From Cystobasidium ongulense (taxonomy: Eukaryota; Basidiomycota; Cystobasidiomycetes; Cystobasidiales; Cystobasidiaceae), in assembly GCA_022835595.1 (NCBI GenBank), contig BQUP01000001.1:2790001-2854000 (forward strand): 64,000 bases of DNA. The letters are read 5' to 3'. Below, piece by piece: positions 4,877 through 32,628 of the stretch; position 1 is the first letter of the stretch; every line of letters begins with the position of its first letter. The notes beneath the pieces were generated by a model. That model was not told where the DNA came from. It searched no databases and worked only from the letters and a program-made list of their open reading frames with translations. A program made the position numbers and the translations under genes.

Positions 4877-6252
<1,376 letters not shown>

Positions 6253-9923: not shown

Positions 9924-11778
9924 TTAAGGGACACGTCCGCCAGACATCATCGTATCGATACCATCAGTCTGTTGGGGTGGTGTTCCTCTTCTTCTTCCGG
10001 TTCCTGTTCCTGTTGCTCCAGCTCCAGCTCCTACGCCTCTTACTCTTTCTCTCCGCCTTTCTGCGTGTCCATCGTTCACTGGGCTTCCTTGAAATGGTCC
10101 CCCACGTATGGAGTGTGGTGGCGATCCTCGATATTCGTGTTCTACTGCCGTGTCGTCCGTCTCGTCTTCGCGCCGCCAGTCGCGTTCCACCGCCACCTCA
10201 CGATGTGCATGACTTGATTGTGCTTGGGCTCGGTGCGACGTTGCTGAACTGCTTGAACTGCTTGAGCTGCTTGAGCTGCTTGAGCTGCCTGAGCTGCTGT
10301 CATCTTCACCGTTGTCTCCGTTATTTATTTCGATGACCAAACTATCTAGTGCTGGCCTTTTGGAGGCCCTGTATGCGAGAAGGACTACCAAACTCATTTC
10401 CTGCAAAGGCGGTGGAAGCCAGAGAGGTTACAAAGAAAACAATCAGCCCTGAAGCTGCGGCGGAGTGTCGCGAAAGAACCATCTAACAATCAAACCCCTA
10501 CCATCAATAGAAGAGCCTGTACGATAGTTGCAGCTATGAGAGAATAATTGAATCGCTTTATCTCCGAGCAGTACGACAGGGTGTCCTCTGTACACTCGGG
10601 GTGGGTTATCTTCAAAACCTTCTTGACATCCCAACCGATCTGCTTCTGCTTTGATGTGCCTTTGTTTTTCCATTTTGCTACCTGATGAGCGAAGGACAGT
10701 CAGCAAGAAATGCGCATTCGATCTTGTAGTACAGTGGAGACTGCCTATCAACCCCGCACGCATCTACCGGTCTGCGTGAAATGAGGTACAGTACTCGTTG
10801 ACTTACACGACGTTTGGGCCATAATCTGACCTCGGCGTGCGACCCATTGTACCAAGTCATTGCGACGAGGTACTAATGTGAAACGATTCGACTTAGTTTC
10901 TGTAGCTGACAATGTTATGGGTTCATGTTGCTTACGGCATATCCAATCAGTACAGCAAGACCTAACACGATGTACGCGATAAACCTCCTTTTGACACCTT
11001 CTCGATTTGCCGGACCCTGCGCTGTATGTCGGTCGAGTGCGCGTGCTTTAGGGTCCCTTAAATGAAGACTACTCCTGGTGTAGGCTTTTGCGACTTCCAT
11101 ATAGTGATCGTTAACATTGTCTTGGGAAACATATTCGATGAGCGCGGAACCAAAACATAGAAAAGAATTCAATAAGGCCAATATCCAGGAACCCTCAGAC
11201 CACCCCATCAATCGACCCTGTTCCTGCGGAGGCTCCCCTGTTGCATCACTCGTATACTCCTTGTTGTATGCATTTCTGTATAAAAGAGCTGAAGTGCGCA
11301 AAGCAAAAAAAAGAACAGCAATTAGCGTCGGCTCAAGCGTCATAACCGTTTGAGGTACCACACGAAGATTGAACATTCACCTGAACTCAAGGCAACAATA
11401 CTGCCCAAGTGGAAATGTTCTATCTGCTCAGCCTGTGCTAGCTATCGCTATACATGTTGCGGGGACCACTCACGTTACGATCCCAGTCAAAACGGCTAGC
11501 CCGATATGGCACCGCATCAAACAGTTTTCGACTGTATGGATAATACTATATCAGTCAATACTCGGAGCGTTTGCAGGACCGAACTCACACTTCAACGTTT
11601 GCGGTCGAAACGTGATGCTACTGCAGTCCCCCCAATTGTCACTCAATGTACCATCCTCCGCTTGACGGTCTCTCTCGCTCTGAGTAGTGCTCTGGCTAGA
11701 GGTTGTGCTTCCGCTATGGCTACGGGTGCTCTGACTTCTGTTGCGGTTGCTACTGCTGGCCCTTGTTGAAGCGGCCAT
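9924..11778 (-). CDS. four-TM membrane protein, family 1 copy A
   Basis: Unrecognised membrane protein, paralogous to the gene at 25476-27081. Exons are 11778-11589, 11531-11474, 11400-11381 (20 nt), 11288-10936, 10872-10807, 10681-10502 and 10400-9924, about 447 residues. Exons 2, 3 and 5 have exactly the same lengths (58, 20, 66 nt) and all phases are the same as in copy B. Shared landmarks are SITFRP before the first intron, a first TM (HIGLAVLTGIVTIVALSSALL), YRNAY, a second TM after SWILALLNSF, a basic loop, a third TM (IAYIVLGLAVLIGYA), WYNGSH, a loop with CTEDTLSYCSEI (paired Cys), a fourth TM with NYSLIAATI, and ASKRPAL. Predicted topology: N- and C-termini cytosolic, Cys loop lumenal or outside. 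The C-terminal tail is long, acidic, then poly-Ser and Arg-rich, and is absent from copy B. Confidence 0.68.
10241..10300 (+). repeat. short tandem repeat (9-nt units) encoding poly-Ser
   Basis: Units close to gagctgctt are repeated about six times. On the minus strand they encode the poly-Ser run in the last exon of family 1 copy A. Confidence 0.8.
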
Positions 11779-12651
11779 TGGAGAAATAAAGGTTCGCTTA
11801 TGATGTTGTGAAGGAGCAGAAATAAGATCTTTTAGTTGGTGATAATGTCATGCCCAGGAAAGGGGCACTGCTCTCCTGTGCACAGCTGTATGGACGTCGG
11901 CCGGCCAGATAGTCGACACAGGTCAGCATCATCTTGCCCCGAATCCTCGGTGGAATGGAAAGCAGAGGTGACGGAAGGGCCGCTGAGAGACGAGCACGGT
12001 AAGTCATACGCCCGTGCAAACCAGACGAACATACACCTTATCGTTCGCTTCGCTACGGTGTACTACATGGCACGGCATGGAAGCTGGGTCTCATCGAGCA
12101 TCGGCATTGGTCCACTTTTGGGCGGAGCATCAGAGCGGGAGCAAGCCGTCATCGAGTAAAGGGATGGTGCGTAGAACGGTTATTCCCAGAGTCCGCGAGA
12201 TGAGAATTAAAGACCGCTTTCAATGTACTTGAGCGTCACAAGATCAGTCGAGACTTGAAACAATCAGAGTCGGATTAAAGCGGGTCGTGGAGGGATGTAG
12301 TGTGTGCTGGTGTATACTAGTTCGTAGAAGTTGGAGCTACTTGATCAAATTGACGCTGGGTCTTGTGGCGGGACATATTCAGCGCAAAAAAAAAAAGATA
12401 GGGAAGTACTTATACCACGCAATGATTCACATGAGGTCAATCTAGCTCATTGGTATGTATCGCGAGTCGTCATCGTCGTAAATTTCGTGTATGCATGCGC
12501 GCGGCGGGGTTCGTTCTCTACTGTTACACTTGCAAACCCGCCGAGAAGTATCAATGCAAGTTATTGAGTTGACAAGTATCCTTTGATGGCTTCAGTTTCG
12601 ATCGCTCCCGATGTAAGACCGTTTGCATTTCTAGCCAAGTGACCAGCACAT
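11779..12651. other. intergenic region between family 1 copy A and family 2 copy C
   Basis: About 870 bp upstream of copy A and downstream of copy C. An A-run lies near 12386-12397. I see no supported gene; the short open frames here are not backed by any domain. Confidence 0.4.
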
Positions 12652-13255
12652 TTAGAGTAGGAAAGATGCAATGACACCAAGTGCCAAAGCAGGAACAGCA
12701 GCCATATTGACTGCATACGTAGTGGAAGCAGCACTGCGTCCGATAACAGATGTGTAAGTAGTCGTGAATGTAGAAGTTGTAGTTGGAAAAGTTGAGGTTC
12801 CGGTTGAGGTTACTGTAGTAGTGGTCGCAGAGGATTTCGAAGTTTTGATCTTCGGTGCCTTTGTACTTTTAGCTAGCATGGCCTCTTCTGTTGCGATATC
12901 AGAGAACGGGCACAAAGATGATGATGGTCAGTTGGCAATTCGTACGACGGTCGAATCCGTCAACACCAATGATTCAAGGCTCACCAGATTTTACTTCATC
13001 GACGGCGACGGTATCATCCTTGACACTGGCTATAGACGTAGGTCTAGTCGTGGCATGTGCGACTTGACGCGCTTCAACCTCTCCACGCCTGTGTCGCGGT
13101 AAACGCAATACGCACGCCAGGTCCAACAACAAGTCAGTTCTTGCTACCCGACTTGCCATTGGGAGAACGAGACAGAGGGACACCTACCTAATAGCAGCAC
13201 CGTTGGCACAGGCGAGCAAGCCAGCTATGACGACGAGAATGGATTTGAAGTGCAT
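12652..13255 (-). CDS. small Ser/Thr-rich surface protein, family 2 copy C
   Basis: Predicted secreted, probably GPI-anchored cell-surface protein of 135 residues, paralogous to the gene at 21463-22094. Exons are 13255-13188, 13088-12985 and 12887-12652. Exon 1 is a signal peptide (MHFKSILVVIAGLLACANG). Exon 2 gives RRGEVEARQVAHATTRP. Exon 3 holds a short Lys-rich stretch (KAPKIKTSK), a Thr/Ser block (VTSTGTSTFPTTTSTFTTTY) and ends with a hydrophobic tail (AAVPALALGVIASFLL) after small residues, the layout of a GPI signal. Exon 1 has exactly the same length as in copy D and intron phases match (2, then 1). Function unknown. O-mannosylation of the Thr/Ser block is inferred, not seen. Confidence 0.65.
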
Positions 13256-14011
13256 GTTTATCTGTCAAAGTGTCCAGCTATTGAAGTTTCTAGGGCTGCT
13301 GTGAGGTTCTTTCGAGGGCGTGGGAGCGGGGGGTGAGAAAAAGGATTGCACTGCTTTTCAAGAAGAGAAGAGAAGAGACAAGGACAGAGAAGAGGAATCT
13401 GCATGGACTGGGATCCTTCATCGTACGGTCTCCTCCCTCGTCGTACGCAATGAGCGTCAGTTCGACCAAAGTCCGCCTGCCGTGCCTGGAGGTCTAGAAC
13501 CCGAAGCGCGCTCAGTTCCAGTGTATGCAGCTCTTGGAGCTTCTCGAAGTATTGCAAGTAATGCATGGCAAGCACAGTATGTAGGCTTGCTATCTGATTC
13601 CCAGAGTACCTACAGGGTCTGCTGCCATTGCAAGCACCACTTGATCATGCACCGCTGAAAGACGGCAGATTGGAAGCTTTGTTGGAGGCCGCATGTACTT
13701 ATCTCTGGACTGCATCTTTAGACCTGCAAAAGGTCGCTTGCTTTTATCGCAAGAGCAAGCTGCTGCAGGCAGTTCAAGCTGGAATAGGCTGCTCGATCAC
13801 GACGGGGCACTGTCAAAGATCTGATAAGCTGATACTTTTTGTCGTGTAAGTAGTAGCACGGTGGTCCGTCGACTTTTCATTCATATCCTCTAAACATCGT
13901 AAGGTTTCTCTGGGAGCACAATGTCGGGATTATAATCTACATCGCAAATAAGTTGTTAAAGGCTACAAGGCGTTCCTTCAAATATATGTCCAGTGTAGGT
14001 TTCAAGCTTTT
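13256..14011. other. intergenic region upstream of family 2 copy C
   Basis: About 750 bp. It includes an AG-rich run (agaagagaagagaagag near 13359-13400). Open frames on both strands here have no recognisable product. Confidence 0.4.
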
Positions 14012-15493
14012 TTACAACATGCAGAGTTGCACACCAGCTACCTCAGCCAGACTTCTCAATCTCTTTGCATCCTGATCGCTCCCATGCGCCAGAGAATCCT
14101 GCCCAATCTCCAATACTCTCAAGCTTTTAAAAGTCTTCTGTAGTATCGCAGAGGCGAGATCCTGTATGCTTATCCCCGTCGTATGTTTGATGGTGATGCA
14201 CTCTAAAAGAGGGCAAGTCGCGTACCTCTCTAGGTACGATATGCTATCAATTTCTGAAGACTCCGAAGCTTCTATGCGTAGGCTCTGTAAAGCAGGAAGA
14301 TGGTATCTTTGACTGTTGAGCGGAGATGGTGCTTCAGTCTGTAACTGATGTGGAGATGAACAGACGAGAGTCAGACATTTCAAAGTAGCCTTGTTGAGAT
14401 TGATAAAGTTGTCGAATGACGATGGTATGCTTCCAGAATTCGAAACTAGGCTCAGCGATTCCAGGTGTCCCGAGAGTACTCTGCTTGCCCATTTATTGCT
14501 GAGGATCGTGCCGTCGTGGATGTCCAGGTTTTGGAGCAGTGCAAGTGACGAGACTGCTTCGAATAGAGGTGATGTAGGAGCTAGCGTGTCGCAGCTACTT
14601 TCATGCACGCTCAGGGAATGAAGTCTCGGAAGGAGGGAAATCACATCCGCTACGAGATGTTCGTCTAGCTGAAAGTATGCACATGCCGATATGCTCTGGC
14701 CCAGAGTACTATCCTCGTCTGCCGTAGGCGTTGATGATGCATCAAGAGGTTTGAGTTGCGCAGAGGTGATTCCAAAGTGCCCAAGTTGCGGACCGTGTCG
14801 CCGGAGTGCTGTTTCTAATGCTATAGGGAGCCGAGAGACATAAGTCCCAGGCAGGGCATTGATGAATTCGAGCTTCAACGAAGTCAGATAAGGCAGCGAG
14901 TCGAGGAGCGAGACAGCCTGTCCAATTGACAATGCCTGATTGCGATCTAGAAGTGCTTGTTGTGCTGTGGCCGTGTCCTGCTGACTGGGATGGCTTGTGG
15001 CTGTACCGAGGGCGACCTTTACAGTGAGCGCTCGGACACAACGGCCATAAGAGGGTTGAGCGAGTTGATGGACGAGAGGCAGTCTATGGTGCGCCAGGAC
15101 ACGCGTAAAGTCGATATTCTGTGCGGGTAATGGGTACGCAATGCACATGGATCAGTTCACTTCAATGCCTCCATCAGAATGTGACCACCGCGCTGTTGTT
15201 GTTGTCCTCCATCCACCCCAACAGCGCGTTCAAAGCCCGGCGCCACAACTCACCTCGTATATGACAGACACGGACGCAGCGTAGAGGTTGCTGGCTGTCC
15301 TGCTCAGCTGAAGGGCACTGTCTACATAGTCCTGTCTCTCTTGCTGCTGCTGCTGCTGCTCGTGTGTCAGTGTGTCGTCTGTTGTAGTCTTGCAAGCAGA
15401 TGTTGAGCGTGCCTGCAAGTCGTTGTGCCGGGCATGCAGCAGAACGAGGGTGAGCAGCTCTGCCGGGAATGACGCTAGTGATGAAGCAGTCAT
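14012..15493 (-). CDS. F-box-like / leucine-rich protein
   Basis: Predicted substrate adaptor of an SCF-type ubiquitin ligase, by resemblance only. Exons are 15493-15254 and 15118-14012 (phase 0), 448 residues. The N-terminus (SLASFPAELLTLVLLHA) fits the start of a fungal F-box (LPxELLxxIL). It is followed by a Gln run (EQQQQQQQE) and a helix containing SRTASNLYAASVSVIYE, typical of the second half of an F-box domain. The rest consists of spaced leucine-rich segments (LHSLSVHESSCDTL, LQNLDIHDGTI, LESLSLVSNSG, LKCLTLVCSS, LQSLRIEASES, LECITIKHTTG, LRVLEIGQDSL), like irregular LRRs in fungal F-box proteins. The start is at MTASSL because the F-box follows immediately. The substrate is unknown. 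Confidence 0.65.
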
Positions 15494-16382
15494 GGTGTTG
15501 ATGTGTGAATGGATGGAGCAGGTGGAAAGGAAGGAAGCTCTACAACTGCTTGAACAATTGTTAGCATCTTCGCAGAGATGTTGTGGCACCCGGACTCTCG
15601 GCACAAATATAAGGTCACCCAAAATGACAGAAACTTGCCATCTTACTCGAAGAAGTTGACTATACTGTATGAGTAAAGACTGTATGATGAGAGACTGTCC
15701 TACTGGCCGATGATCCGTGACATGAGTCTATCATGTGAAAGCGAATATTCAGTCCTCGTATTCTCAGATGCGTGGTGGCAAGCCCGACTTACCGCAAGAC
15801 CGAAACAAGTCCGAGGCTACCTTCATAGATACATTACACACAGAGCAACGAGCAAATGCAAAGCCAAGGGCATTTGCGATTATACACAACCCTATATTCG
15901 GGGGTAATTGAATTATGCTATAAGTGTAGTAAATCATGCTAGAGAAGGTTCGAACGGTACAAAGATAAACTAATGATAAAGTAGAATGAGGCAGAGAATA
16001 GCAAACGCAAAGTAACATCTACACTTCGTCTATGGTACAGCTTCAATTGCTGATGCGGACAGGCGACTCGCTCTATGCTGAACAGGTCGAATCATTGATC
16101 ATGCTCCAGGAAGCGTGCTGAGGGTATTTGTTGAGTGACTACTGCCGGCATGCAGAAAATTTCAATATACTGTCGTATACTTCGGGCATCGGGACTTGAA
16201 AATGGTGAGGATTTGCTTATAGCTACAGAGGTGTCCTAGTCTTCCATGCTTCGACGAGGGTGTCGCAGTGAGGTCCGGACAAGCTTCGGGACACAGAAGA
16301 CGCAACGCTGAGGAGAAAATGCGACTTCACCAAAGATTGTTATCTGTCTTGATGTTGAATGTTTGTACAAGTCTTGAAGGAA
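15494..16382. other. intergenic region upstream of the F-box-like gene
   Basis: About 890 bp. A weak AT-rich stretch lies near 15880-16015. No coding, RNA or repeat feature was recognised. Confidence 0.4.
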
Positions 16383-18005
16383 TTAAGGCAAGATCGTCGC
16401 TTGGGGAGACGAAGCATAGCTCGATTCGATAGTTTGCACTCTCGTTAAATCCGCATCTTTCTCAGGGCTCTTATCCACGTCTACCTTTTCCCTTATCCTT
16501 TTCGTGTCTTGATTTTGTGTCGTCGTATTTTGCAGAGTCTCCTCCTCTTCTTCTTTCATTAACAAAACATCATATAACTCGGCTCTATCTCTTAAGCTAT
16601 TGGACCAGAATAAAGCAACTCCAGCATATCCCAAAGCAACTGCAAAGGTCAAGACTATGCTATTGAATGCAATTGGCCAATGTGCTACTTCCGCACTAAT
16701 CCATCCGCCGAATAGGATACCCATACTTGGTGAAAGGCAGAGTAGAGCTATGAGGTTTCGATGTCTTATCGGGACTGTGAAATAACACCGAGCAGAGGGA
16801 GTTGGAGAATTTGATTAGGTCAATCTGATGATCACCGAGCTTGTAAAGAGGAACGATGCGCTTACACCATACAATACGACCGCGATATAGCTCGGTATAT
16901 GCTGTAAAATTGGGCAATGAAATCCCCATCATTGCAGTTCCGAGTGCAAGCGGTATGAAAGACAGTCGAATGGAGACTGCACACAAGACGAGAAAGGAGG
17001 AGATTTGTCAGACTTGGCATGATCCACAAAGTAATAATAGCGGGGGTGGTTTCCCAAAACTCACAGATAGGTTTATCATCGCTAACCAAATATTGCTTCA
17101 ATGCGTAACCTATAGAGATGAATATAGCACCACCGATGGAAAAGCATTTGAAGATAATTCCCTGTTCCATTGAATAGTAATAGTCAATTATAAGCAGATG
17201 CCATTACCCTTATTCGAAAGGTCACAGAAGAATAGATATAGGAAATCAAAAGACTGACCCATCGTTTATTGATCATCGAAGCAGCCGCTCCGAAACCAAG
17301 TGCTGCAATAACGACAGCTATAAATCCACCAATAGCCAGTCCTAATCCAATGCCAAAATCGGATTTCTTATTCGCATAACTTCCTTTAATAGCTAATGAG
17401 ACTCCGAACCCGAGGATACTAAGCGAAAGGAAAGTTATCAGTATCTATTCGCGGAAGTATGGTGTTGGTGACAATGCGTGTACATGTGTCAAAGTCGTTG
17501 TTTCAACTTACAGTTTACCCAAAGAAGCAGCTAAAAAGTAGAGTATCGGTACGATAGACCTCTTATCAACTGAATTTCTATGCATTCTAGCCAATTTCTT
17601 CTGTTGTTCCGTAAGTGGTGCATAAGGTCTTCTAGGTGCTGATGAAGTGTCGAGTATCAAGTCTCTGCGCTGCGCTGGTATTGTTGACGGTTGGGTCGCA
17701 TGTTGATTGACAGAAGCGGGCATAGCGGCAGCACTAACGGAAGAAGTATCTTTATTCGCCTTGATAAGGGATATACCTAACTTATCACGATCTTCAAGCT
17801 CGTAGGAATGTGATACTGCAGTACTTGAGCTGCTAGGGATGCGGCTCTGTATGGAATGGGTGTTGCTATCAGTGGCGATGATGAATGCTGGTGTTGTTGT
17901 TGATGAGGTTGACGATAAAGACCGTCTTGAGAGCGGAAGAGATACAGCGGATGATGATGGATGAGGAGAGAGGTAATCTGGATAGAGCGATTGTGAAGGT
18001 GCCAT
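16383..18005 (-). CDS. six-TM MFS-like membrane protein
   Basis: Predicted integral membrane protein of 417 residues. Exons are 18005-17512, 17418-17259, 17161-17065, 16976-16866 and 16774-16383, all in frame. The N-terminal about 145 residues are Ser-rich and cytosolic. Then come VDKRSIVPILYFLAASL (like the first helix of Dal5/Tna1-type major facilitator permeases), GIGLGLAIGGFIAVVIAALG ending in GAAASMINKRW (motif-A position), GIIFKCFSIGGAIFISIGYA, a fourth helix GTAMMGISLPNFTAYTE, then HRNLIALLCLSPSMGILFGG and WPIAFNSIVLTFAVALGYAG. After six helices the protein ends in a charged tail (KEEEEETLQ). A full MFS transporter has 12 helices, so this equals one half. Family assignment is tentative; the transport substrate, if any, is unknown. 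Confidence 0.55.
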
Positions 18006-19340
18006 TGTAGACAAGATGTGCAATGGAAGGGTCGTGTTGGTAGCTGGTCCCCCAAGTCGGTCGGATGGGGGCCAGGCAGATCTACTTGGCTTTTCGGTGA
18101 ATAAGAGATAGCCGAAGGGGGGTGTGTGTATGTGTGTGTGTTATGTGTAGACGACAATCTTAGACGTCGCTGTTGTTTGTTTGAAGCTGGCTCAACGTTG
18201 TTTGCAGATTCCGATTGTGGATCAATGAATGCCAAGAATGCAGCTATGATATGCGCTTTCTGGGTACCGCTACCACACGCAAAGTAGGTAGAGAAGTCGG
18301 TGTATATCCTGTCGCTATTCCTACAACCGTCCTGAGAATGCTGTGTCCGCTGCTGTCTTGTTAATTGCGTTGCGTGTTCCTTCGATGACTTTCAGGCTTG
18401 ATTACGGTACCGATAATCGGACTTTGAAGATGTACAAATGAATGTCAGGTTATGATGTCTGCTGTATGGAAGATGGCATGGAGAGAACCAGCTCTTTCGT
18501 GATGGTCAGTAGAACAGAGCGATGTGATTGTTGACCTATGAAGTTGCAAGATGACAAAGGTGGATTTCGAGAATGTGGTGCGTGAATGACCCTCGCCGTC
18601 ACAAAATACGAGTGGCGAAGACGACCAGTCTTATGATATTCGTCGTGTGATGAATGACAGGTTAACAAGATCCTCAATCTCAGGCAAAGCAATAGGAAAT
18701 AACATGATGTCGCATAGAGTCTTTCTTCTGCTGTCACCGTGTCGTATAAAGCGCAAATGCTAGAAGGCAAGCAAGAACAGACTCGCACAGGCCGAGCTGT
18801 TGTGCAGTCGTGGCCGTTGTCGATATTGTTAGTAGGTTCTCATATTCGAGATAGCAAGATAGCATATAAGGTTGACTTCTACTATCATATTTGAAAATTT
18901 AGAATAGATAAAGGCTACTGGATGTGTCTGGTCTGAAGTAGATAGTTGAAATAATAAGAAAGCTAGAGCCATGACTTGTTTTGAGAATTGAAAGAGGAAA
19001 TAAAAAAGGAGTCTCTAAAGAATACCAATCTTTTCCCGTGTATATAGATGAAAGAGGAAATGTTCATTAAAAATAGTCGATATTGATCGGTTCGTTCATT
19101 GTAGAGGGTCGTAAAAAGGGGTGAGCCTTCTTGTGTATTTTTTCTTTTATGTGTTTAGTCCAGCACAGCACCAAGCGTAAGGGCTGATCTGTTACAGAAA
19201 GTGTATGTTCCGAGAAAATCTGGATAATACGCCACAAGGACAGAGCGAAAGGCGTAGAAGAAAGAACGTCTATCGTCCGATACTTGTTTTCACGCGATTC
19301 CCATCTAAACTTGAAAAGACTGCTGATCACTTCCTGCCGT
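18006..19340. other. intergenic region upstream of the MFS-like gene
   Basis: About 1.3 kb. It contains a TG microsatellite (18121-18149) close to the MFS-like start and an AT-rich stretch near 18880-19070. No gene is supported. Confidence 0.4.
18121..18149 (+). repeat. TG microsatellite
   Basis: An imperfect (TG)n run, interrupted by tat, lies about 120 bp upstream of the MFS-like start codon. Confidence 0.8.
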
Positions 19341-20801
19341 TTAGAAGAAGAAAGCGACGACACCGGCTAGAGCGAATAGCATGGTAGCAGCGGGTGCTTT
19401 GTCCATGTATCCAGCACCGTTGGCAGCAGCGGAAGAGGCCTTTGAGGGTGCGAAGTGCATTCATTCACAGAAAGAGATAAGTCAGCATCGTGGCAGACTG
19501 ACCCGAGCTTATTTGGTGGATGCGATCTAACTTACAGCAGCAGCCGAGGTAGAGGCAGAGCTTACTTGCGAGCTAGCGGACGCAGTAATAGCGGATTGGC
19601 TGGAGCTAATGCTAGCCATGGTAGAGGCACCAGCAGCTCTAATCTCGGATTCTTGGCTTGCGAAAGAAGCTGATAGGGAAGCTGCGTCTCCAGTGGCTGT
19701 TGCTCTGACAGACGACAAGGATAGGAGGGCGGCGGATAGACCTGCTTCGGCGGAGCTCTGAGCGGAGGAAGCGGCGGCCATAGCGCTATGATTATCGACA
19801 AATGAAAAAAGCAGCGACGATCAGTACTTCGTGAAGGCAGAAAGATACTCTAGATAATTTGAAAGAGTAGACTCACGTAGAGATCGAGGAGTCGACATTG
19901 CTCTGAATGCTGCTTAGAGCGGATGAGATGGAAGAGCCAACGCTCGAAGAAACAGACTCGGCGGCAGAGGCGACTGAAGTGCAACACAAGGGCGTTATAT
20001 CAGTATCTGGATGTCCTCCTGCGCGATGAAAGTGGTGCCAATGCGATACTGACCAGACGAGACGGAGGACTCGGCAACGGCGATGACTTTTGTGGTCAAA
20101 CGAAGGATCAGCATACATGACGAGGGCCAACAAGTATACCGCGAGAACACTCACCTGAAGAAGCAGAGGAAGCGGCGGAAGAGGCTACAGAAGAGGCCGA
20201 TGAAGCAGCAGCGGCAGCAGCTGACGAAGCAGAAGCTGCATTGTCATTGAAACCGGCACAGAAAGAGTCTGCAGCGGATATAGCTGCATTCCGGTCTTCG
20301 CGGGATTGGCCACACCAGTATTCAGTGCATCCGTTGAAAGCTTGTCTGAATGGGTCGGAAGCGCATAGGCACTGTAGCACAATGAAGCGAGTCAGTGCGT
20401 TGCTGCATTGTATGTCTCACATTGAACGCGATGGGAGGACAAAGAACTCACGCCGTAGTCGGCAGGACCAGAGCAAGAGGGAGCGAGTCCTGAGGTGCGG
20501 AACAGAAGAGAGATGGGCGTAGATTACAGAGGTGAGGAACGACAAGGGGAAAGAGATGAGGTGTGATAGACAAGTACGCGTCCAAGGTCAGCAAGGACGA
20601 GCACGACTACAGTCACCGCAGACTGCAACAGAGCGTCATCATTGACCATCACCACTCACTGGCCTGCTCGGCAGTCTTGAAGTTCAAGCACTGGATCGCG
20701 CAGTTGGGAGCGCCTGCAGTGAGCTGACGGGGGGCGAGCTGGAAGGGGGCAGCGGCTGCGCCTAGAGCGAGCGACGCGACGATGACAGTGGATGTGAGCA
20801 T
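19341..20801 (-). CDS. CFEM-domain GPI-anchored surface protein
   Basis: Predicted secreted and GPI-anchored cell-wall protein. CFEM proteins bind haem or act at the fungal surface. Exons are 20801-20660, 20489-20452, 20371-20155, 20086-20054, 19973-19877, 19785-19536 and 19439-19341, 291 residues, all junctions in frame. The signal peptide is MLTSTVIVASLALGAAAAP. The CFEM domain (about residues 30-100) shows eight cysteines in order: NCAIQC, APSC, GCLC, NGC, YWC, SFC. The CFEM core is split over three exons. A long Ala/Ser stalk follows, then a GPI-type end (ANGAGYMDKAPAATMLFALAGVVAFFF without a downstream charged tail, seen as two segments). Haem binding is not tested; the usual CFEM Asp is plausibly the D in GPADYGC, by position only. 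Confidence 0.85.
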
Positions 20802-21462
20802 CTTGGAGGAGTGTGTGAGGCTGGTGAGAGTGCGAGGTGCTGTACTAGTGAGGAGTGAAAAAGAGAAAAGAGAGGCAAGAGCCAGTCCAGTTTTTCCGCC
20901 AACCAACAACAAGACGAGCCTCCTGTTTTTCCTGTTCCTGTGCGGTGTGTGCGGTCAGTTGCGTCACCTTTGTCGAGCGTTTCCTGCATGTGTCCCGGTT
21001 GTTGGTGGATGGTCGCCATTGCAACGACCCAGAGGCACAAGGAGGACCACCAAAGCATCGACATCATGATTACGAAACTGGAAGGTTTCGCCCATTGAAC
21101 GGATGGCAGCGGCAGGTCTGAGCGGGAGGGTCAGAGTTGTGACGGAGCTGTGCTGAAGCTGACTTGAAGAACGAGTGCATGAGAGCGAGGTGGGTGCACG
21201 CGACAATCATCCTCGTTTGCAGAGCGACCTCTGCCACTCGAGTCTGTGACATGCAGGCGAGCTTGGACAGCCCTTTCCAGTTACTTGCTGCATGTTGTTG
21301 TTTGTGAAAGATGATATCCGTTCTCGGCCTGAGCTTGCTGGCTTGCTTGTGGTCTCGATCGTTCTACCCGGCCACGGTATAGGTATACATTCAATTGACA
21401 AGTGATGAATACAGAAAGGCTGGCCAATTCATTCTCTTACACAGCCAAGGCAGAGGCCTGTT
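20802..21462. other. intergenic region upstream of the CFEM gene
   Basis: About 660 bp, the promoter side of the CFEM gene and the 3' flank of family 2 copy D. Nothing else was recognised. Confidence 0.4.
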
Positions 21463-22094
21463 CTAATAAAACTGGTTTAAATCGAGCGCAATGTATACCA
21501 GGCAAGAGACTGCCAAAGCAGATATAGCAACCATATTGACTGCATACAGACTGGAAGCAGTTCCTCCTCCAGTGAGAGTCGTGTAGGTAGTCGTGAATGT
21601 AGAAGTCGTACTTGGAAATGTGGAAGTTCCAGTTGAAGTTACTGTCGTAGGAATCGGAGGATTTTTGGGAGCCTTGGGAGCCTTGGGAGCCTTTGGAGCC
21701 TTGGGGACCTTAATCTTGATTCCTCCGCCTTTCATGTCTTGTTCAGGCTCATCTATTGTGGACAACACATTTGATGAGACGAGAAGCAACGTTTACATTG
21801 GTCAGTCGGCAATATGCTTTCTTCCATGATGGGGGGGGGGGGGGGGTTTTTTGCAGGGTGTCCTGNNNNNNNNNNGTAGGACTCGCTGTAACCTGACCGA
21901 CTTGACGCACTTCTACTCCTCCACGCCTGCGATGCGATGAACGCAATAAGCAAGGAAGCCCACACCATTCCGGTTTTAAGCATGTCCTCTCCCCATAGCA
22001 CCGGGACGAGATGAACTGACACTCACACAATAGCAGCTTCGGTTGCACAAGCAAGGGAAGCAATACCGATGAGCAGAGCCATGCTGAAATGCAT
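21463..22094 (-). CDS. small Ser/Thr-rich surface protein, family 2 copy D (contains assembly gap)
   Basis: Paralogue of the gene at 12652-13255. Exon 1 is 22094-22027 (signal peptide MHFSMALLIGIASLACATEA, same length as in copy C), exon 2 starts at 21926 (RGGVEVRQVGQVTASP) and runs into the 10-N gap, and exon 3 is 21753-21463. Exon 3 starts DEPEQDMKGGG, has a KAP repeat (KAPKAPKAPKAPK), then nearly the same Thr/Ser block as copy C (VTSTGTSTFPSTTSTFTTTY) and YAVNM. The C-terminal hydrophobic segment is followed by ALDLNQFY, so GPI processing is less clear than in copy C. The donor of exon 2 lies in or next to the gap, so the length cannot be stated. Function unknown. Confidence 0.6.
21667..21703 (+). 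repeat. 9-nt tandem repeat encoding Lys-Ala-Pro units
   Basis: Four copies of gggagcctt-like units. On the minus strand they encode the KAP repeats of family 2 copy D. Confidence 0.85.
21830..21875. other. poly-G tract followed by assembly gap
   Basis: A run of G (21832-21846), then T6, and 13 bases later ten N (21866-21875). The homopolymer probably broke assembly. The N count is likely a placeholder. Confidence 0.9.
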
Positions 22095-22889
22095 GTTTCC
22101 TCAGATGGGCACGAGAGTAGCTATCGATGAGAATTGCCTGCGCAGGGTTGTTGTACCGTAGACGTACGAGTCCGGGAGCTAGGGGAAGCGGAAGCAGCGC
22201 TGTAGAGAAGGGATGGAGGGAAAAGAAGAAGAAGAGGGCGAAGAGGAAAGTAAGGTCTGTAAGTACGGAAGCCTTGTCTAGTGTGTCCTCAGCAATAGTC
22301 TGCCGGTCATGTCAGGAATGTTCGCGACAGAGGTCGACATCATGCGCTCAGTCTCTATTGTTGGAACTCTTGACGCTAAATCACCCCATGACATGTATGT
22401 CAGAACAGGGTAATAGCTACTTGGTTGCAACTTCCTTGCAGGTCTGGCGACTATCTTGTCATTGTTTCCCAGACTACCGGTATAGCAGAAGGAAAGCGGC
22501 GACAGGTGCCATGATTCGGAGCACGCTGCCATTCGCATATGTGACGCGCTTGTTACATCGTTCAGCTCCGTGGAGTTGGAATTGTATCGCCATTCGTGCA
22601 TGATTGACTCGCTTGGTGGCAGTCAAGCAGCCCTGCGCTTTCGTCTGCGTCTCGCTTGTCTTCTGATCTGCAAACCCATGAATTGATTGTTGCAGCGCGG
22701 TTTACCAAGTGCGCGTATCGACAAGATAGCGAAGCAGTGAAGGGCGAGTGTGTCGCATTGCTGTTGAAGACTACCAGTAGGCGACTGTGAAAGAAGAGAA
22801 GACAGCAAGCGCATCCAAAACAAGGCCAACAATCGGAAAGCCAGAAGGACGTTGGAGGAAGCTAGGCAGTACGGTAGACACAGTCAACC
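22095..22889. promoter_or_regulatory. divergent promoter region, family 2 copy D / SFH1
   Basis: About 795 bp between divergent start codons. A purine-rich stretch (ggaaaagaagaagaagagggcg near 22215-22240, on the plus strand) is the CT-rich tract of copy D's 5' side. No specific site can be named. Confidence 0.4.
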
Positions 22890-25024
22890 ATGTCGCAGTA
22901 TTCGCCTGCGCTCGAGGCGTATATTGCCAGGTGAGTCTTCGGCGAGTCAATCGCACACTCGCCTGGAAAGATAACTGACACTTTAGCGATACAGTGTAAT
23001 TGCAGTAGGCGGTGACTGGCCAAGCCGGTATGTTCAAACAGGTTTGCACCTGACTGCTAGTATCTCAGCATCACTGACAGCTTCCTTTCGGTCAATCCAG
23101 AGTTCAGCATCTTCGAAACACTTACCCCGGCAACGAGAATGGATTTCGACAAGCACTCGAAAAAGCGGTACTCGCGGCGCACGAGAAGGCAAAGCAAGCT
23201 GCTGCTGTAGCATCACCGCAAGCCTCTCAAGCTGTGTTAAATCAAGATTCGAATGGCCAAACGCGCTCCTTCCCTGGTAGTAGAAGTTACCCTGGACAGC
23301 AACAAGCACCAATGCAATTGACACCAAGTACCAGTACAAGTGCACAACAGACAAATAGCCAGGGTATGACCTATATCCCTTATGCTAGAGACACAGCTCC
23401 TCAAGCACGACCTTCTTCTTCTTCTTTTCAACCTGCACCACGGCGGCAGACGCAGCCATTGTCAAGGGATCACCATCAGCAGGCGCAGCAGCAGCAGAAT
23501 CAAAGCTTTGCAAACAGTAGCATGAATGGTGCAAGCTCTGCGCTTGGTCCAAGTGTGCCTATACGACCTGGAGCAATGCCCCGTCCTTTCAACTCTGCAC
23601 TCAACCCTAGTACAGTCCGTCAACCGAAGATACAGCCTCTACCAGTTACGAAATCACGCGAACCATTGCCACCCTATTTCCCAATCTCAACCTCACAAGC
23701 CTACATGACAACGTACCCTTCTCGGCTTAGGCTAGGCCTCACATCTCTCATTCAGCCTATATCTTCTTCCGGTCAGGTCGTCTCTGCCAACCCACGCGCT
23801 ATCACCTCAACAGCTTCAAGAGCTGTTCAGGCCGAGTCTTCTACAAATTTACTGGGCAAGCGACAGCGTGCGAAGGTCGACTATACAGAGCGGCTCCGTG
23901 TCATTGGCCGTGAAGAGTCATCAGAAGATGAAGAAGGTACAGGCGATGAAGATGACGAGGATACACAAGAAGACGCGAGAATGTCTAGAGCACAACGAGC
24001 TGCCAAGCGTTCTGGAATGAATGTTCCGCTACACTCAACACTGTCTACACCTAGAGATTCTCCAGCACCGGATGCCTCTTTCTCTAAAAAGCGAAAAGAC
24101 AAATCGAAAGATGATATCGGAGGTGGTGGCAGGACTTGGCTTGGTCAAGATCCACCTGGTGATTTAATATTGGTGCAACCCGCAAAACGTCATATTCTCC
24201 CTTATGTGTGAGTCCTTTGAGCCTGGCAAACTTATCCTCCGTTTCTCGTGATCAGTGCTGAATTGCAGTCACTCTATCTTGTACACAGTCCTGAGCACGC
24301 TCTTGAGAAGAAGGCACATGAAAAAAGCCTGCTAATACCAATCCGCATCGAACTCGACACGGAAACGCATCGTATACGAGACTCATTCACCTGGAACCCA
24401 CTTGAGAAATTCATAACGCCAGAGACATTTGCCAAAATTTTCTGTCTCGATGTTGATATACCGCACGAAGTTTATGGTACACAAATTGCTCAACTCATCA
24501 AGCAGCAGTTGGACGAACACTCGGGAGTAGCAGAAGTATCTTTGCTAGCTCCAGAACAAGAAGCCGCCGGACAAGAAGCAGATCTTCGTGTTATTCTTAA
24601 TTTGGATGTTCAAATTGGTACTCTGCATCTTATTGATAGAGTCGAATGGGACTTGACTTCTCCCTTGACACCAGAGGTCTTTGCGACACAGATGTGTGCG
24701 GATCTTGGGCTTGGAGGTGAAGGAGTCATGATGGTTTCGCATGCAATACACGAAGAACTCCTACGCCTTAAGAAAGATTGCATCGAACTTGGTCTAGTAG
24801 GAGGAGGTCTGGCGGATAGTAATGCCAAAGGACCAAAGAGACTAGAATCAATATGGAGAGACTGGAATGAAGCTAAAGGCTTTGTTCCGCATCTGGAGAT
24901 TTTATCACCTGAAGATATTGATGCTTTGGAGTTCGAAAAGGAGAAGAACGCTCGTCGCCTCTCCTCGAGGAGGAACTTTGCTGCTGCTGCGACAGCACGC
25001 GACCGTGGAAACAGGCGCAGATGA
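22890..25024 (+). CDS. SFH1: SNF5/SMARCB1-family chromatin remodelling subunit (SFH1-like)
   Basis: Core subunit of SWI/SNF- or RSC-type nucleosome remodelling complexes in the nucleus. Predicted exons are 22890-22930, 22987-22993 (7 nt, tentative), 23081-24207 and 24256-25024, about 647 residues. The C-terminal half carries the two SNF5 repeats: LIPIRIELDTETHRIRDSFTW with LIKQQLDEH, and LRVILNLDVQIGTLHLIDRV with EWDL. Upstream is the Sfh1-type TTYPSRLRLGLTSLIQPI, followed by an acidic stretch (ESSEDEEGTGDEDDEDTQED). The N-terminal third is Gln/Ser-rich and probably disordered, making it longer than yeast Sfh1. The first exon (MSQYSPALEAYIA) and the 7-nt exon keep the frame into LPFGQSRVQHLRNTYPGNEN, but this 5' structure needs transcript support. 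The TTYPSRLRLGL segment favours Sfh1 over Snf5. Confidence 0.85.
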
Positions 25025-25475
25025 AAACAGGACAAGTTCTTTGCTACCATGTAAATCCGATTAAAACATCATAAGGTTTAGCTCTTATGATGCTTATATA
25101 TAAATTCCGTTAGAAGAGCTGGCCCTTTTGGCGCTGTCAATTGAATTTGTTTCACAGCCTGGCTCGCAACAAATCTTCGAGTAATACAGGGTGATATAAG
25201 AGCACATCATTCTCACGCCAGTTTGCTCGCTACTTGCAGACGCTGGCCATCGGTCAAGGGTCATTGACAATACAGCTAACGTCTCCTACATCACTTTTAT
25301 AGTACAGAAATGCGCGAACAATTGGCGACGCATTGTGGGATAAGTAACCTTTCCCGCGGATGATGGCAGAGCGTTGGAGGTCGTCTACAAGCTCGAGAGC
25401 CTGCTCTTGCAGTTGCCCTTCCTTAAGTTGTACACATCGCATTCTGTCGCTTATACTATTTCTAGCTGTCAGGAT
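25025..25475. other. convergent intergenic region, SFH1 / family 1 copy B
   Basis: About 450 bp holding the 3' ends of both genes. A hexamer-like attaaaacat near 25061 could be a polyadenylation signal of SFH1. Nothing else was seen. Confidence 0.35.
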
Positions 25476-27081
25476 TCAAGGGGCACGTCTTAGGGTTTTC
25501 ACAGCGGGCCTCTTGGAGACAACTTTTAGGTACATCCATATGAAGAATGTCGCCTGCAGAAAGACGTTGGGCGATTGGGAAAGTGCCGAGGCAAAGAATT
25601 AGAACTGGAACGGATATATCAAAATGTTGTTTGTACTAGAACGTGACCTACGAAGAATAGAATGATATGAAACGTAGTTGCAGCTATGAGGGAATAGTTG
25701 AGTTGCGTTATTTCCGAGCAAAAGTCCAGTCTCTCCTCGGTACATTTGGGATGGTCTTTCTGTTCGATCTTCTTATTCTTCCACTTTTTCTTTTCCTTTG
25801 GTGTGCCTTTGTTTTCGTATGTAAGTACCTGGTGAGCGATATTCGACCAACAAGCATGTCAGTCGACCTTGTGTCCTGGTTGAACCTTCTCATCCCGTCC
25901 AGACGCAGCTGATGAAATGCGGGAAGTGAATGTTGATACACATTAACTAACCTTTCGTTTTGGCCAGGTTGTGACCAAGTCGTGCGAGCCATTGTTCCAT
26001 GTCCAAATGGCCAGCCACTGCGGTCGAACAAATCGGCTCAGCATCCGTAGCTACAACGTTATGGGTTGAGGCTATTTACGAGATATCCAATTATAAAAGC
26101 GAGTACGATTGCGAACACCGCGATATATCTGAAGCTCAAGAGTCGTCGTTCACTCAATGTCTTTATCAACTCTAATTCATCCTCTGTTTTCTCATCACCG
26201 TCGATCCATTCTCTATAACCCCTTTCGATTTTGCGGTGGGAGACGAACACGCTTGCTATCCAGGCTATACAAGCGACCGCAGTGAACGCGGCCAGTATCC
26301 AAGCGTTTTCGGCATGGCGCATCATAGCACCCTGCTCTTGGGTGAATTTATCCTGTGCGTTACCGCCAGCCTTGTAAGCGTTTCTGTAGATACAAGCTGG
26401 ATTGCGGTACGCCGCGTGGAGGGAGCATCAGCCTCTGCATCTCAACCGCTGCTCCACATATGCAGTCAAATCACAGGCCCACCTGTAATCACGACAATGA
26501 TGCTGACAAAGGCAATGTTCATCCCAATTACCTACATACCGCCATTGGTACGCCGGCATTTACTCACCTGAGTACAACACACACGGCGGCTATTCCGATA
26601 TACAGCAGGTTCAAGGTGAGTTCATCTATACCAATCATACTATGTTAGAAATATTCAAGCGCTCCTTTGACTGAAACTCACATTCGAAGTTTTTCGGTCG
26701 GAATGTGATGCTATTGTAGTTCTTGTATTTCGGCTTGGCTCTCTCTACTGTTTGTCGTGACCTGTTACCACCGCTATTGTGACTAGAAGCACGCTCCTCG
26801 CGCTGGCCATCAGTAGGTGCGTCAATTGGGGCTGCGGGTAAGCCAGCGGGCCCTGGCGTAGCACCCCCGCGAGTAGCACCCCTGGGAGTAGCACCCCCGC
26901 GAGTAGCACCCCTGGGAGTAGCACCCCCGCGAGTAGCACCCCCGCGCCCGGGAGGAGCACCCCCGCGCCCTCGAGTAGCACCCCCGCGCCCGCGAGGAGC
27001 ACCCCCGTGCCCGCCGCGTTGAGACCCTGCATTGCCCTCGACGTTGCGTTCGATTTCTACGGCGTCTGGATTATCTGACAT
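25476..27081 (-). CDS. four-TM membrane protein, family 1 copy B
   Basis: Paralogue of the gene at 9924-11778. Exons are 27081-26682, 26625-26568 (58 nt), 26502-26483 (20 nt), 26396-26080, 26017-25952 (66 nt), 25828-25652 and 25553-25476, about 371 residues. The cytosolic N-terminus is an Arg/Gly repeat region (GRGGATRGRGGAPPGRGG-like, positions about 25-80) not present in copy A. Then come SITFRPKNFE, a first TM (NLLYIGIAAVCVVLSIIVVI), YRNAYK, a second TM (AWILAAFTAVACIAWIASVF), a charged loop (EKTEDELELIK), a third TM (AVFAIVLAFIIGYL), WNNGSH, the Cys pair CTEERLDFCSEI, a fourth TM (YSLIAATTFHIILFF continuing ATFFIWMYL) and a short basic end SKRPAVKTLRRAP. Function unknown; no similarity recognised to a named family. 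RGG repeats can bind RNA or be methylated, but that is general knowledge, not evidence here. Confidence 0.68.
26851..27010 (+). repeat. GC-rich minisatellite encoding RGG/GAT repeats
   Basis: Two perfect 30-bp units (26881-26910 and 26911-26940) are flanked by degenerate copies of about 15-30 bp built on gtagcacccccgcg. The array lies in exon 1 of family 1 copy B and encodes alternating Gly-Gly-Ala-Thr-Arg and Pro-Arg-Gly-Ala-Thr units. Confidence 0.9.
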
Positions 27082-28999: not shown

Positions 29000-31900
29000 A
29001 TGTCGCGCCCGTCGTCGCGCTTGTCAGTGGGTGCCGCCTCAGATCAACAACATGCACGCAGCAGCAATAAGCCAGCGAGCAGCTCGAGTGGACGAGAGCG
29101 AGAGCGCGAACAGCGTAGCGTATCGTCAAGCTCGTCCAATGCAACCATAATCGCACGCCCGCAAAGCTCACTTTCTACGAACAACGCGCATGCAAGAGTA
29201 CCCTTCACTCCAGGCGCACACACCAAGATTGCAAACTTGGGACTTTCAGCGAGACAAGTCGATAAGCTCAGCAAGTCCATTGCTGAGGTACAACGTGGTC
29301 CAAGCTCTACCGGTCAAATGGTGCAAAAACCGGCTGCTTTGCAGTATAATCCAGCTTCACGACCTGTGGCGGCGGATGCCCGCAAAACAGACCTGCAAGA
29401 CCGCAAAGGGAAAGCTCGAGGTAGGGTGGCTCTTTGCTCGCACTGTCGATAGAAGTATCTAGAAACTTACGCTGACAATGCACCTTACTCTGTACAGCTT
29501 CAGTGCTTCCTGAAGCATCCTTTATTGCCGAGACCTCGTTCGTAGACGCTCCCCTCAACTCTCGGCTGGCCAGCAGACCCGACGCACGTCAAGAACGTCT
29601 TACCACCAAGAAACTTCGCCAAATTATCACGAAGTCATCTGGTGATGAGGACGATGAATCAGACCTTCAGCAATTAGACGATCAAGCGGAGCCCGAGGAC
29701 GAGGACGACAATGCTACATTGGACGACCTCTCTCAAGCAGATCTTGATATACAAGAAGCTTTACTGGTAGAGGACCTCCTTGGGGTTTTGGTAGTGAGTG
29801 TCAAACCATTCGTCGCTTTACAACTAGCTAAAAAACAAATTTGTTTGCAGGGTGTCGAAGGCCACTTCATACGAAAACATATCGCTTTCGGGAGTAGTGC
29901 CGCCGCTACGGCTGGCGAGTTCGAAGGACCTAGTTTCAAGATAGACGAAGCCATTGGTATGCGAACGCTCATCTCATCGAGTTTGTAAGCGTGCAGTTGC
30001 TAAGTTTCAACCTGCCAGATCCCTCGCTGCGAGAGTTGACGTACAAGATTGTCAGACTTGCTACTTATCACGATGCCATCCAAACCTTTGTCGATGCGTA
30101 CAGTCATTTGAATTTTGGTTTGACAAGCCATGCCTTGTGCAGCGGTATCAGGGATATCATCAAGGTAAACTTCGCATTACTCTCGATAAGAGTCGGAACC
30201 TGATCAAGTTGCTCTTTTCAACTCAAAGGAGTACGACCTGCTAATAGCTCGATTGGAAGAACATTTTGAATTTTCGCCTGCCTTTTCCCTCCAAAAATTT
30301 TATTACTTCGTCCAGCCTGCTCTTCATCAATTATTCCTAATCTACGATTTAATCCAAGATCTCACTACATCTCCAACAAGCGCAGATGTATCGGCGCAGG
30401 AAGAGAGTGCCGATCTGCTCGACGAAGACAGCGACGATGACGACCGCTTCGGAGGTGGCAAAGCGATGAAAGAGGCCTTGAGGCAAATGTCTGCAGGAAA
30501 AACTGAGCCTAGCAAACCACTTGGTTGGAGTGCTGGAGGACCAGTGAAGGGCGGCGAGATCCTAACACTCGTTGATGAGAGGTTACAACGCACAAGCGGG
30601 TGAGTCAGCTGAATTTTGAAGGCTGTCCGGCAAGCTTTGCTCCCTGGTTTCATTCTTCTGATACTGCCTTGTCGACACCCCAAGGGATCCCGAGGCTTTC
30701 GATATTTACACCAAACTCCTTCTGAAAGCGTCGCAGCCATATGCAGAGTGTCTGTTGCGCTGGGTGACAACGGGCCATCTCATAGATCCGTATGATGAGT
30801 TCATGATACGAGAACACAAGTCACTCCATCGTGCAGCATTAGATCAAGATTACGTCGATGAATACTGGGGCAGGAAATACACACTGAAGGATCTGAGCAT
30901 GGGCAGCCAGACCTCGGCTGTTGCGACAGGACTTGATGCCGATAAGTTGTTGCTGAATCCTCTATCGCCGGGATTTGCGACAGAGGGTCAAGATGCAGTG
31001 TCCTTAGATTCAAGAGCAACGAAGCGGGAGAATGGTCTCGGAGGTGGAGCAATTATACCTGCATTCCTGGAGGCATGGAAGATCAAGGTGCTATTGGCTG
31101 GAAAGTATCTCAATGTTATACGGGAATGCGGAAGCGGTGATCTTCTTGAAGATCTGCGCGGGTCCAGGTCATCCGTGCCCAAGCTGGCCGACCGGGATAT
31201 AGACATGACTTCTGAAGACTTTCAAAATCAACTCAACAGCGCGTACTTCACAGCGAACAAAGCGTGTCTGACCTTGCTCATAGACAGACAATCACTCTTC
31301 TCTCGCCTAAGATCTCTCAAGCACCATTTCTTTCTCGATCATGGCGACTCATTTACTCACTTTTTGGACCTCGCGGGTCACGAACTCAGCAAGAAAGCAA
31401 AGCATGTTTCGCTCGAAAAATTGCAGTCTTTACTCGATCTGGCGATACGAAACCCTTCTTCCGCTAGTAGCGGTGATCCATACAAGGAAGATGTGAAGGT
31501 AGCTACAAGCTCGACTACGTTGACTGAATGGCTTATGAAGGTCAACAATGTCGATACGAAAGTCCCAGGTGCTGAAGATGGAGAAAGTCTTCCTGATTCT
31601 GCAAGTGCCACTGGAGACAACAGGAGCAACGAAAAGGAGCGTAAAAAGGACGACAAGCATGTTTTAACAGGGATGGAAGCTCTCTCTCTCGATTATACAG
31701 TTGATTTCCCACTCTCGCTCGTCATCTCTCGAGCGGCTATTTTACGATATCAACTCATCTTCCGACACCTACTAGCTCTGAAACATCTGGAACAGTCGTT
31801 AACCAGTAATTGGCTAGAACATACCAAGAACCCAATCTGGCGCAAGAGAACTCCTCATGTAGGCCTTGAGAAATGGAAAAATAGAGTATTCACATTAAGA

Positions 31901-32628
31901 AGTCGGATGCTTGCATTTGTTCAGCAAATGTTCGCTTTCGCCGTGTCAGAAGTATTGGAAAGCAATTGGAGAAAGCTTATGACCCGCTTGCAAGGAGTGG
32001 CAACGGTAGATCAGCTTTTACGGTATCATATGGACTTTCTCGAAACGTGCCTAGGGCAGTGCATGTTGACGAATCCAAAGCTACTAAAGGTGCGGCCGTA
32101 CTTTACCGATCCGCTTATGAAGGTTTTTGTACGAGGCTGATATACGTTTTCCATATATCCCCGCAGGTCCAAACTAGGTTGATGACAACCTGCTCACTCT
32201 TCCTGTCCTTCAACTCAAAGTTCACCAAAGCGCTTCACGCCTTGACAAATGAAGTAGAAGAAGTGATAGCTAGTGGTGGTGAATGGGAGAGTGTGAGTAT
32301 TGAACAACAGAGTGACTTTCTCAACAAGTTCGAGGTCAACTTGTAAGTCGGCTACATATTCTAGTCTATTACTAGCGGTCAGCAGGCTGACCGCGCATTT
32401 TCACTTTGCTCGCAGTTATCGACACCAGAATGTGAGTTATATGCGCCTCGTGGTATACTCGCGCACATCACACGAAATGATACTGACGCTGCTCCTGTCA
32501 CTTTCTGCCTGTCTCAGCTGCACCTCGACAGTGTCACTTTCCACGCAATGAGCGACATGGGATCCCTGCTCGCTCTAGTGGTGCGGCTAGGGAGCACAGT
32601 CCCACAGTCTGAAGGTCCTCCATCCTGA
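29000..32628 (+). CDS. SPC97: gamma-tubulin complex component 2 (Spc97/Alp4 type)
   Basis: Subunit of the gamma-tubulin small complex that nucleates microtubules at the spindle pole body. Predicted exons are 29000-29420, 29498-29793, 29851-29956, 30019-30164, 30229-30599, 30685-32122, 32167-32342, 32416-32431 (16 nt) and 32518-32628, about 1026 residues. GCP landmarks in order are DLLGVLVGVEGHFI, DPSLRELTYKIVRLA, the GCP2-type FYYFVQPALHQLFLIYDLI, YAECLLRWVTTGHLIDPYDEF followed by EYWGRKYTL, PAFLEAWKIKVLLAGKYLNV, LTGMEALSLDYTVDFPLSLV and LDSVTFHAMSD. The spacing and the WVTTGHLIDPYDEF motif favour GCP2 over GCP3. The 16-nt exon gives FYRHQN across its borders, and without it the frame breaks. 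The N-terminus (about 170 residues) is Ser-rich with acidic stretches. Confidence 0.9.

Follow-up and report, generated by a model that had tools for sequence, protein, structure and literature searches.

Two paralogous genes for a predicted four-helix membrane protein share six introns and a 20-nt micro-exon in Cystobasidium ongulense

We analyzed a stretch of 64,000 nucleotides (nt) from the Cystobasidium ongulense genome (19.77 Mb in 19 contigs), here called the window (contig BQUP01000001.1, C1:2790001-2854000; G+C content, 0.486). Judging from their sequences, two of its genes, gene 1 (g1) and gene 2 (g2), are clear paralogues. The explanation that we consider probable is that one unnamed gene for a membrane protein with four transmembrane (TM) helices was duplicated locally in an intron-rich fungus (basidiomycete-like, to judge from its short and numerous introns), each copy inheriting the same six introns and a 20-nt exon, and that the product would be a secretory-pathway membrane protein acting through one of its loops. 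Shared splice structure of this kind is the usual outcome of local gene duplication in fungi rich in introns.

The splicing of both genes, as inferred from sequence, follows one scheme. Exon lengths are 190/58/20/353/66/180/477 nt in g1 and 400/58/20/317/66/177/78 nt in g2, the exons of 58, 20, and 66 nt being common to both; all 12 introns have GT..AG borders, and exon ends fall in phases 1, 2, 1, 0, 0, and 0 in either gene. In the protein alignment, six of six junctions occupy the same column and phase (columns 11, 30, 37, 155, 177, and 237 of the core alignment in both genes). A CTRA branch-point-like motif lies 17 to 44 nt upstream of the acceptor in 11 of the 12 introns, intron 2 of g2 being the only one that lacks it. 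An earlier note on this DNA had proposed that the two genes keep the same intron positions and phases and three internal exons of equal length, and had placed the micro-exon borders at 11474 to 11400-11381 to 11288 in g1 and 26568 to 26502-26483 to 26396 in g2; our models bear out each of these proposals, the borders being exact (spliced frames open, GT..AG introns).

The g1 and g2 proteins are 31% identical over 310 amino acids (aa) (BLASTP; E, 4e-46), and their Smith-Waterman score of 397 compares with a maximum of 54 among 500 shuffles, in line with the duplication claimed previously; the motifs that had been listed as common to the two proteins were likewise recovered. In six-frame searches of the genome, the g1 query (320 aa) returned nine matches and the g2 core (249 aa) eight, all of which are exons of g1 or g2. 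By these searches, two copies only were found in 19.77 Mb, the match counts being lower bounds because the tool scores best candidates only.

In line with the earlier note, which recognized no named family, none was reached in Pfam-A, in NCBIfam (a prokaryote library), or among PDB sequences. A literature search for a four-TM orphan family of this kind gave unrelated papers. More specifically, full proteins and cores gave no Pfam match above the curated cut-off, and no credible relative was found in NCBIfam or, with a two-row profile, among PDB sequences. The four PDB matches at E values up to 10 (three designed trefoil-knot variants, best E of 0.0043, and one antenna chain) covered 32 to 38 positions and were judged to be chance matches. 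In viral contigs, 105 stretches fit the search pattern, as did 35 in prokaryote genomes, and none was confirmed in either set. The best subthreshold Pfam profile, DUF2207_C (PF20990), matched g2 only (28.7 bits, or 24.1 when trimmed, against a cut-off of 33), was absent in g1, and was rejected. The reversed g2 core scored 18.2 bits in a chance match to an unrelated family; since this is weaker than the score of g2 itself, composition explains part, not all, of the DUF2207_C score. The term "unnamed" thus means that the family was not reached by the libraries searched, not that it is absent from other fungi.

The micro-exon codes for the second half of the first TM segment (TM1). Skipping exon 2, 3, or 4 leads to a premature stop in both genes, as does keeping any single one of the six introns. 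Because loss of the micro-exon shifts the frame and truncates the protein just after a broken TM1, the intact protein depends on this exon. Among the frame-keeping open micro-exons of 6 to 45 nt that could be fitted between exons 2 and 4 (five in g1, two in g2), the two genes have just one length in common, 20 nt. One-intron models that bypass the micro-exon can also be drawn (18 in g1 and 14 in g2, with GT or GC donors allowed), and every one of them sacrifices some of either TM1 or loop 1. In g1, a few bridge the missing piece with residues read from intron 3; one such model (donor GTAACG) would keep a hydrophobic stretch and has no counterpart in g2. Read in this way, the micro-exon is inherited and probably constitutive.

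Each protein has four hydrophobic peaks (Kyte-Doolittle), which agrees with the four TM segments proposed earlier; TM ends were set by hand around these peaks, and loop lengths follow from them. The loops of g1 and g2 measure 31 and 29 aa (TM1-TM2), 47 and 36 aa (TM2-TM3), and 60 and 61 aa (TM3-TM4), flanked by a variable N-terminal tail (68 and 137 aa) and a C-terminal tail (151 and 15 aa). Tandem repeats (9981-10014, 10245-10298, and 26851-27014) lie in the low-complexity tails, which are the parts differing most between the copies, and the repeat region of the g2 N-terminal tail is rich in Gly, Arg, and Ala. The TM3-TM4 loop carries one NGS site and a C-x7-C pair common to both proteins, with the cysteines close to TM4 (C259/C267 and C316/C324). 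The common sequon and cysteines point to a luminal or extracellular loop, and our best guess is that g1 and g2 encode proteins of the secretory pathway or plasma membrane, with a glycosylated and disulfide-bonded TM3-TM4 loop as their conserved face. The protein would enter the secretory pathway via TM1, leaving its N- and C-terminal tails cytosolic; the charge pattern is mixed with regard to this placement of the tails. Its TM3-TM4 loop of 60 residues would be luminal or extracellular, with a glycan on the common NGS site and a C-x7-C pair that pins it beside TM4. More tentatively, the layout may point to a surface or endomembrane organizer or adaptor that binds its partners through this loop, with the fast-changing tails and the TM2-TM3 loop having presumably diversified between the copies.

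In favor of this explanation, one loop holds both the sequon and the cysteine pair, and by nonsynonymous substitutions per site (dN), exons 5 and 6 are the least diverged segment. Several observations weigh against it. The TM3-TM4 loop is rich in Lys and Arg (14 in each protein versus 6 and 9 acidic residues), which speaks somewhat against a luminal placement. The open frame does not depend on every exon, as skipping exon 5 or 6 leaves it open in both genes at a loss of 22 or 59 to 60 aa. In addition, the AlphaFold2 models, made for single contiguous exons, are weak: exon 4 (104 aa) reached a mean predicted local distance difference test score (pLDDT) of 66.7, with one short and two long helices, and exon 6 (59 aa) reached 51.2, with one C-terminal helix.

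The earlier note had read both an old duplication and selection on the protein from fixed splicing combined with diverged proteins. Neither reading is supported as stated. Common intron positions in paralogues are predicted by descent and call for no special selection. Intron lengths are matched between g1 and g2 (57/56, 73/65, 92/86, 63/62, 125/123, and 101/98 nt for introns 1 to 6), the actual pairing being the closest of 720. Alignments of introns 1 to 6 gave z values of 4.4, 2.4, 1.1, 8.8, 5.9, and 1.1, respectively, relative to shuffles. In a second test, which compared MAFFT alignments with 60 MAFFT-aligned shuffles, only intron 4 lay above all 60 shuffles, with 38 of 53 internal bases identical (72%); introns 5 (62/114) and 2 (29/56) were nearly two standard deviations (SD) above the shuffle means, and introns 1, 3, and 6 were at, or no more than one SD from, those means (e.g., intron 1, identity of 0.49 versus a null of 0.42, SD of 0.09).

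For the core, dN was 0.59 and the number of synonymous substitutions per site (dS) was 1.20, with a dN/dS of 0.49 (bootstrap, 0.33-0.70). Pooled intron divergence was ~0.78, which is a rough value on the low side, since the alignments had been optimized. By segment, dN and dS were 0.40 and 0.74 (0.44-1.31) in exons 5-6, 0.48 and 0.77 in exons 1-3, and 0.79 and 2.22 (1.16-3.63) in exon 4; identity between the copies was 49% in exon 6 and 31% in exon 4, and dN/dS in the TM2-TM3 loop was 0.90 (interval, 0.32-2.45). In fourfold codons whose first two bases agree, third bases were identical in 26 of 40 (chance, about 0.25); by segment, 8/11 fourfold sites were identical in exon 4 and 14/23 in exons 5-7. 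Matched intron lengths, the 72% identity of intron 4, and a core dN not far below intron divergence (0.59 versus ~0.78) indicate that constraint is weak and that the protein diverged fast. On these estimates, purifying selection on the protein is real but weak, and the contrast between diverged protein and fixed introns owes no less to rapid protein change than to age; at a dS near 1, the duplication may still be fairly old. The pair is a clean case of splice structure outlasting protein sequence, and it illustrates that a duplication cannot be dated by fixed intron positions alone; measurements of intron sequence and synonymous sites are needed as well.

Partial gene conversion offers another account of this pattern, according to which the stretch from intron 4 to exon 6 was homogenized and gene parts differ in apparent age. 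Consistent with it, the only blastn match between g1 and g2 spans 10525-10947 and 25675-26091 (66% over 425), dS is lower in exons 5-6 than in exon 4, and the z values of introns 4 and 5 exceed those of introns 3 and 6. However, the dS intervals of these segments overlap; exons 1-3, beyond this stretch, have a similar dS; intron 1, likewise beyond it, reaches a z of 4.4, though its MAFFT identity is not above the null; and the fourfold sites of exon 4 are no more diverged than those of exons 5-7. Stronger constraint on the loop may also account for the exon part of the low divergence, and we think conversion unlikely. Intron 4 itself shows higher conservation than the pool of other introns (Fisher P = 0.002) and also than intron 5 taken singly (P = 0.04), these P values being optimistic because intron 4 was singled out after inspection of all six introns. 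A 15-base pattern within it, AACCCATAACRTTGT, has only two exact matches in the genome, one in each copy of intron 4, and covers the stop of the retained frame; with the intron retained, each frame would run for exactly six codons (VSNMNP in g1 and VNSLNP in g2) and then end. As intron retention is described as common in Cryptococcus neoformans (PMC5006051), intron 4 could be a regulated retained intron, its element controlling retention and both proteins ending six residues past TM3, to give a three-helix form or an off-switch. On the other hand, the same report presents retention in C. neoformans as thought to add little protein diversity (PMC5006051), no common RNA fold was predicted for the intron 4 pair, and the intron sits in a generally less diverged stretch (on dS values with wide intervals), which conversion could explain. 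We regard regulated retention as improbable. The more specific proposal that both copies keep a dedicated switch, marked by the unique element and a conserved ending V-x-x-x-N-P-stop, and make either the four-helix protein or, with intron 4 kept, a three-helix form without the glycosylated loop, appears quite improbable; if real, this switch would surpass much of the surrounding protein in conservation, and a functional element would amount to a switch based on intron retention and conserved within a family of fungal membrane proteins.

A further splicing route concerns the micro-exon. Joining the exon 2 donor to an AG at position +13 of exon 4 leaves both g1 and g2 with an open frame down to their normal stop codon, and the alternative acceptors, TCTTTTATACAG and TTGTATCTACAG, look like real ones. 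Alternative skipping of the micro-exon and the first 13 nt of exon 4 would then produce an in-frame form lacking 11 residues, with a TM1 too short for the membrane. However, the +13 AG belongs to the conserved Tyr-Arg codons of the YRNAY motif, such that coding constraint alone can explain it, and exon skipping is reported as very rare in fungi (PMC5006051); we consider this route highly improbable. A constitutive micro-exon inherited by both copies remains our preferred reading.

Coordinates of the two genes, their parts, and other genes matched in the window are collected in Table 1. Of the 179 stop-to-stop open reading frames (ORFs) of 90 aa or more in the window, 20 were scanned against Pfam, and four matched at E values up to 0.001; none of the Rfam families attained its gathering score there. 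A search with a telomere pattern gave no match.

Table 1. Features of the two paralogous genes and Pfam-matched ORFs in the window
Feature	Position	Strand	Remark
Gene 1 (g1), 447 aa, seven exons	9924..11778	-	Single open frame, six GT..AG introns
g1 exons	11778-11589, 11531-11474, 11400-11381, 11288-10936, 10872-10807, 10681-10502, 10400-9924	-	
Gene 2 (g2), 371 aa, seven exons	25476..27081	-	Single open frame, six GT..AG introns
g2 exons	27081-26682, 26625-26568, 26502-26483, 26396-26080, 26017-25952, 25828-25652, 25553-25476	-	
g1 micro-exon (exon 3, 20 nt), within TM1	11381..11400	-	Skipping gives a stop after 96/447 aa
g2 micro-exon (exon 3, 20 nt), within TM1	26483..26502	-	Skipping gives a stop after 164/371 aa
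g1 intron 4	10873..10935	-	Element AACCCATAACATTGT at 10909-10923; 72% identical to g2 intron 4
g2 intron 4	26018..26079	-	Element AACCCATAACGTTGT at 26053-26067
g1 exon 5 (66 nt)	10807..10872	-	TM3 end and TWYNGSH sequon
g2 exon 5 (66 nt)	25952..26017	-	TM3 end and TWNNGSH sequon
g1 exon 6	10502..10681	-	Most of TM3-TM4 loop with HPxCTEx(5)CSEI Cys pair; most of TM4
g2 exon 6	25652..25828	-	Most of TM3-TM4 loop and most of TM4
9-bp repeat	10245..10298	-	Poly-Ser stretch, g1 C-terminal tail
15/30- and 21-bp repeats	26851..27014	-	Gly/Arg-rich g2 N-terminal tail
SNF5	24221-25021	+	Pfam
Gamma-tubulin complex component	30662-32137	+	Pfam
Isocitrate/isopropylmalate dehydrogenase	5003-5563	+	Pfam
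Dehydrogenase E1 component	46940-47590	-	Pfam

A second gene pair lies between g1 and g2 (13255-12652 and 22094-21463, both on the minus strand). Its small proteins have a signal-peptide-like start (MHFKSILVV.../MHFSMALLI...), an RRGxVExRQV stretch, a Thr/Ser-rich region, and a hydrophobic C terminus; they are 61% identical over the matched part, with a dN of 0.25 and a dS of 0.47 over 54 codons, and two copies only were found in the genome. A run of ten Ns (21866-21875) falls within the second copy, with a C homopolymer 19 bases on (minus strand), and is probably an assembly gap. Duplication of the four-TM gene and the small secreted gene as a single unrearranged block was rejected as a poor fit both to the order (g1, small 1, small 2, SNF5 gene, g2) and to the dS values (0.47 over the 54 codons of the small pair versus 1.20 for g1/g2). 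A third local duplicate pair (37121-38347 and 38461-38673 versus 41089-42534 and 42538-42705, all on the minus strand) gave blastp E values down to 7e-19, and its two large ORFs had no Pfam match at E values up to 0.001. Finally, the minus-strand ORF at 20652-20954 has a secreted-protein start and the stretch APNCAIQCLNF, which we take to be CFEM-like.

Compared with known four-TM families, the layout deduced for g1 and g2 is tetraspanin-like, and tetraspanin membership fails. Like the fungal tetraspanins (Pls1, Tsp2, and Tsp3; PF00335), both proteins have four TM segments, a short TM1-TM2 loop, and a large, cysteine-bearing TM3-TM4 loop. Unlike them, they have no CCG motif, only two large-loop cysteines (C-x7-C), and no profile match: PF00335 was not among the matches up to an E of 5 for either core, and an exon-by-exon search of the whole genome, whose sensitivity is doubtful here, found none. 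The TM2-TM3 loop (47 and 36 aa with hand-set TM ends) compares with 4 aa given for Tsp2, and three of four intron positions are described as conserved in basidiomycete PLS1 genes (PMC2278132). Similarly, Tpl1 of ascomycetes is reported to have a large loop of similar size (56 to 68 versus 60 to 61 aa) with two conserved cysteines; in contrast to g1 and g2, in which both cysteines lie by TM4, Tpl1 has one near TM3 and one near TM4, its TM2-TM3 loop is 6 to 12 aa rather than 36 to 47, and the same report gives it as absent from basidiomycetes (PMC2278132). Since the CCG motif, a very short TM2-TM3 loop (4 to 12 residues), and a profile match are all missing, g1 and g2 are not placed in the tetraspanins, and we hold it very unlikely that they are divergent tetraspanin or tetraspanin-like (Tpl1) members. 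Families of the Claudin/Sur7 type have a large first loop; they were rejected for g1 and g2, which have a TM1-TM2 loop of 29 to 31 aa, a Claudin_2 match at an E of 0.2 in one member only, and no SUR7 family among the matches listed.

With respect to the micro-exon, very small exons are nothing unusual in fungi of this kind: exons down to 1 bp and 5.7 introns per gene have been reported for C. neoformans (PMC3990503), and exons of 29 bp or less for 41 P450 genes of Phanerochaete chrysosporium (PMC1184071). In 2024, fungal micro-exons were described as little characterized, with experimental tests before then in Schizosaccharomyces pombe only (PMC11121469). Like the micro-exons of C. neoformans and the P. 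chrysosporium P450 genes, those of g1 and g2 are very short internal exons amid short introns; unlike them, the 20-nt exon is common to two copies of an unnamed family.

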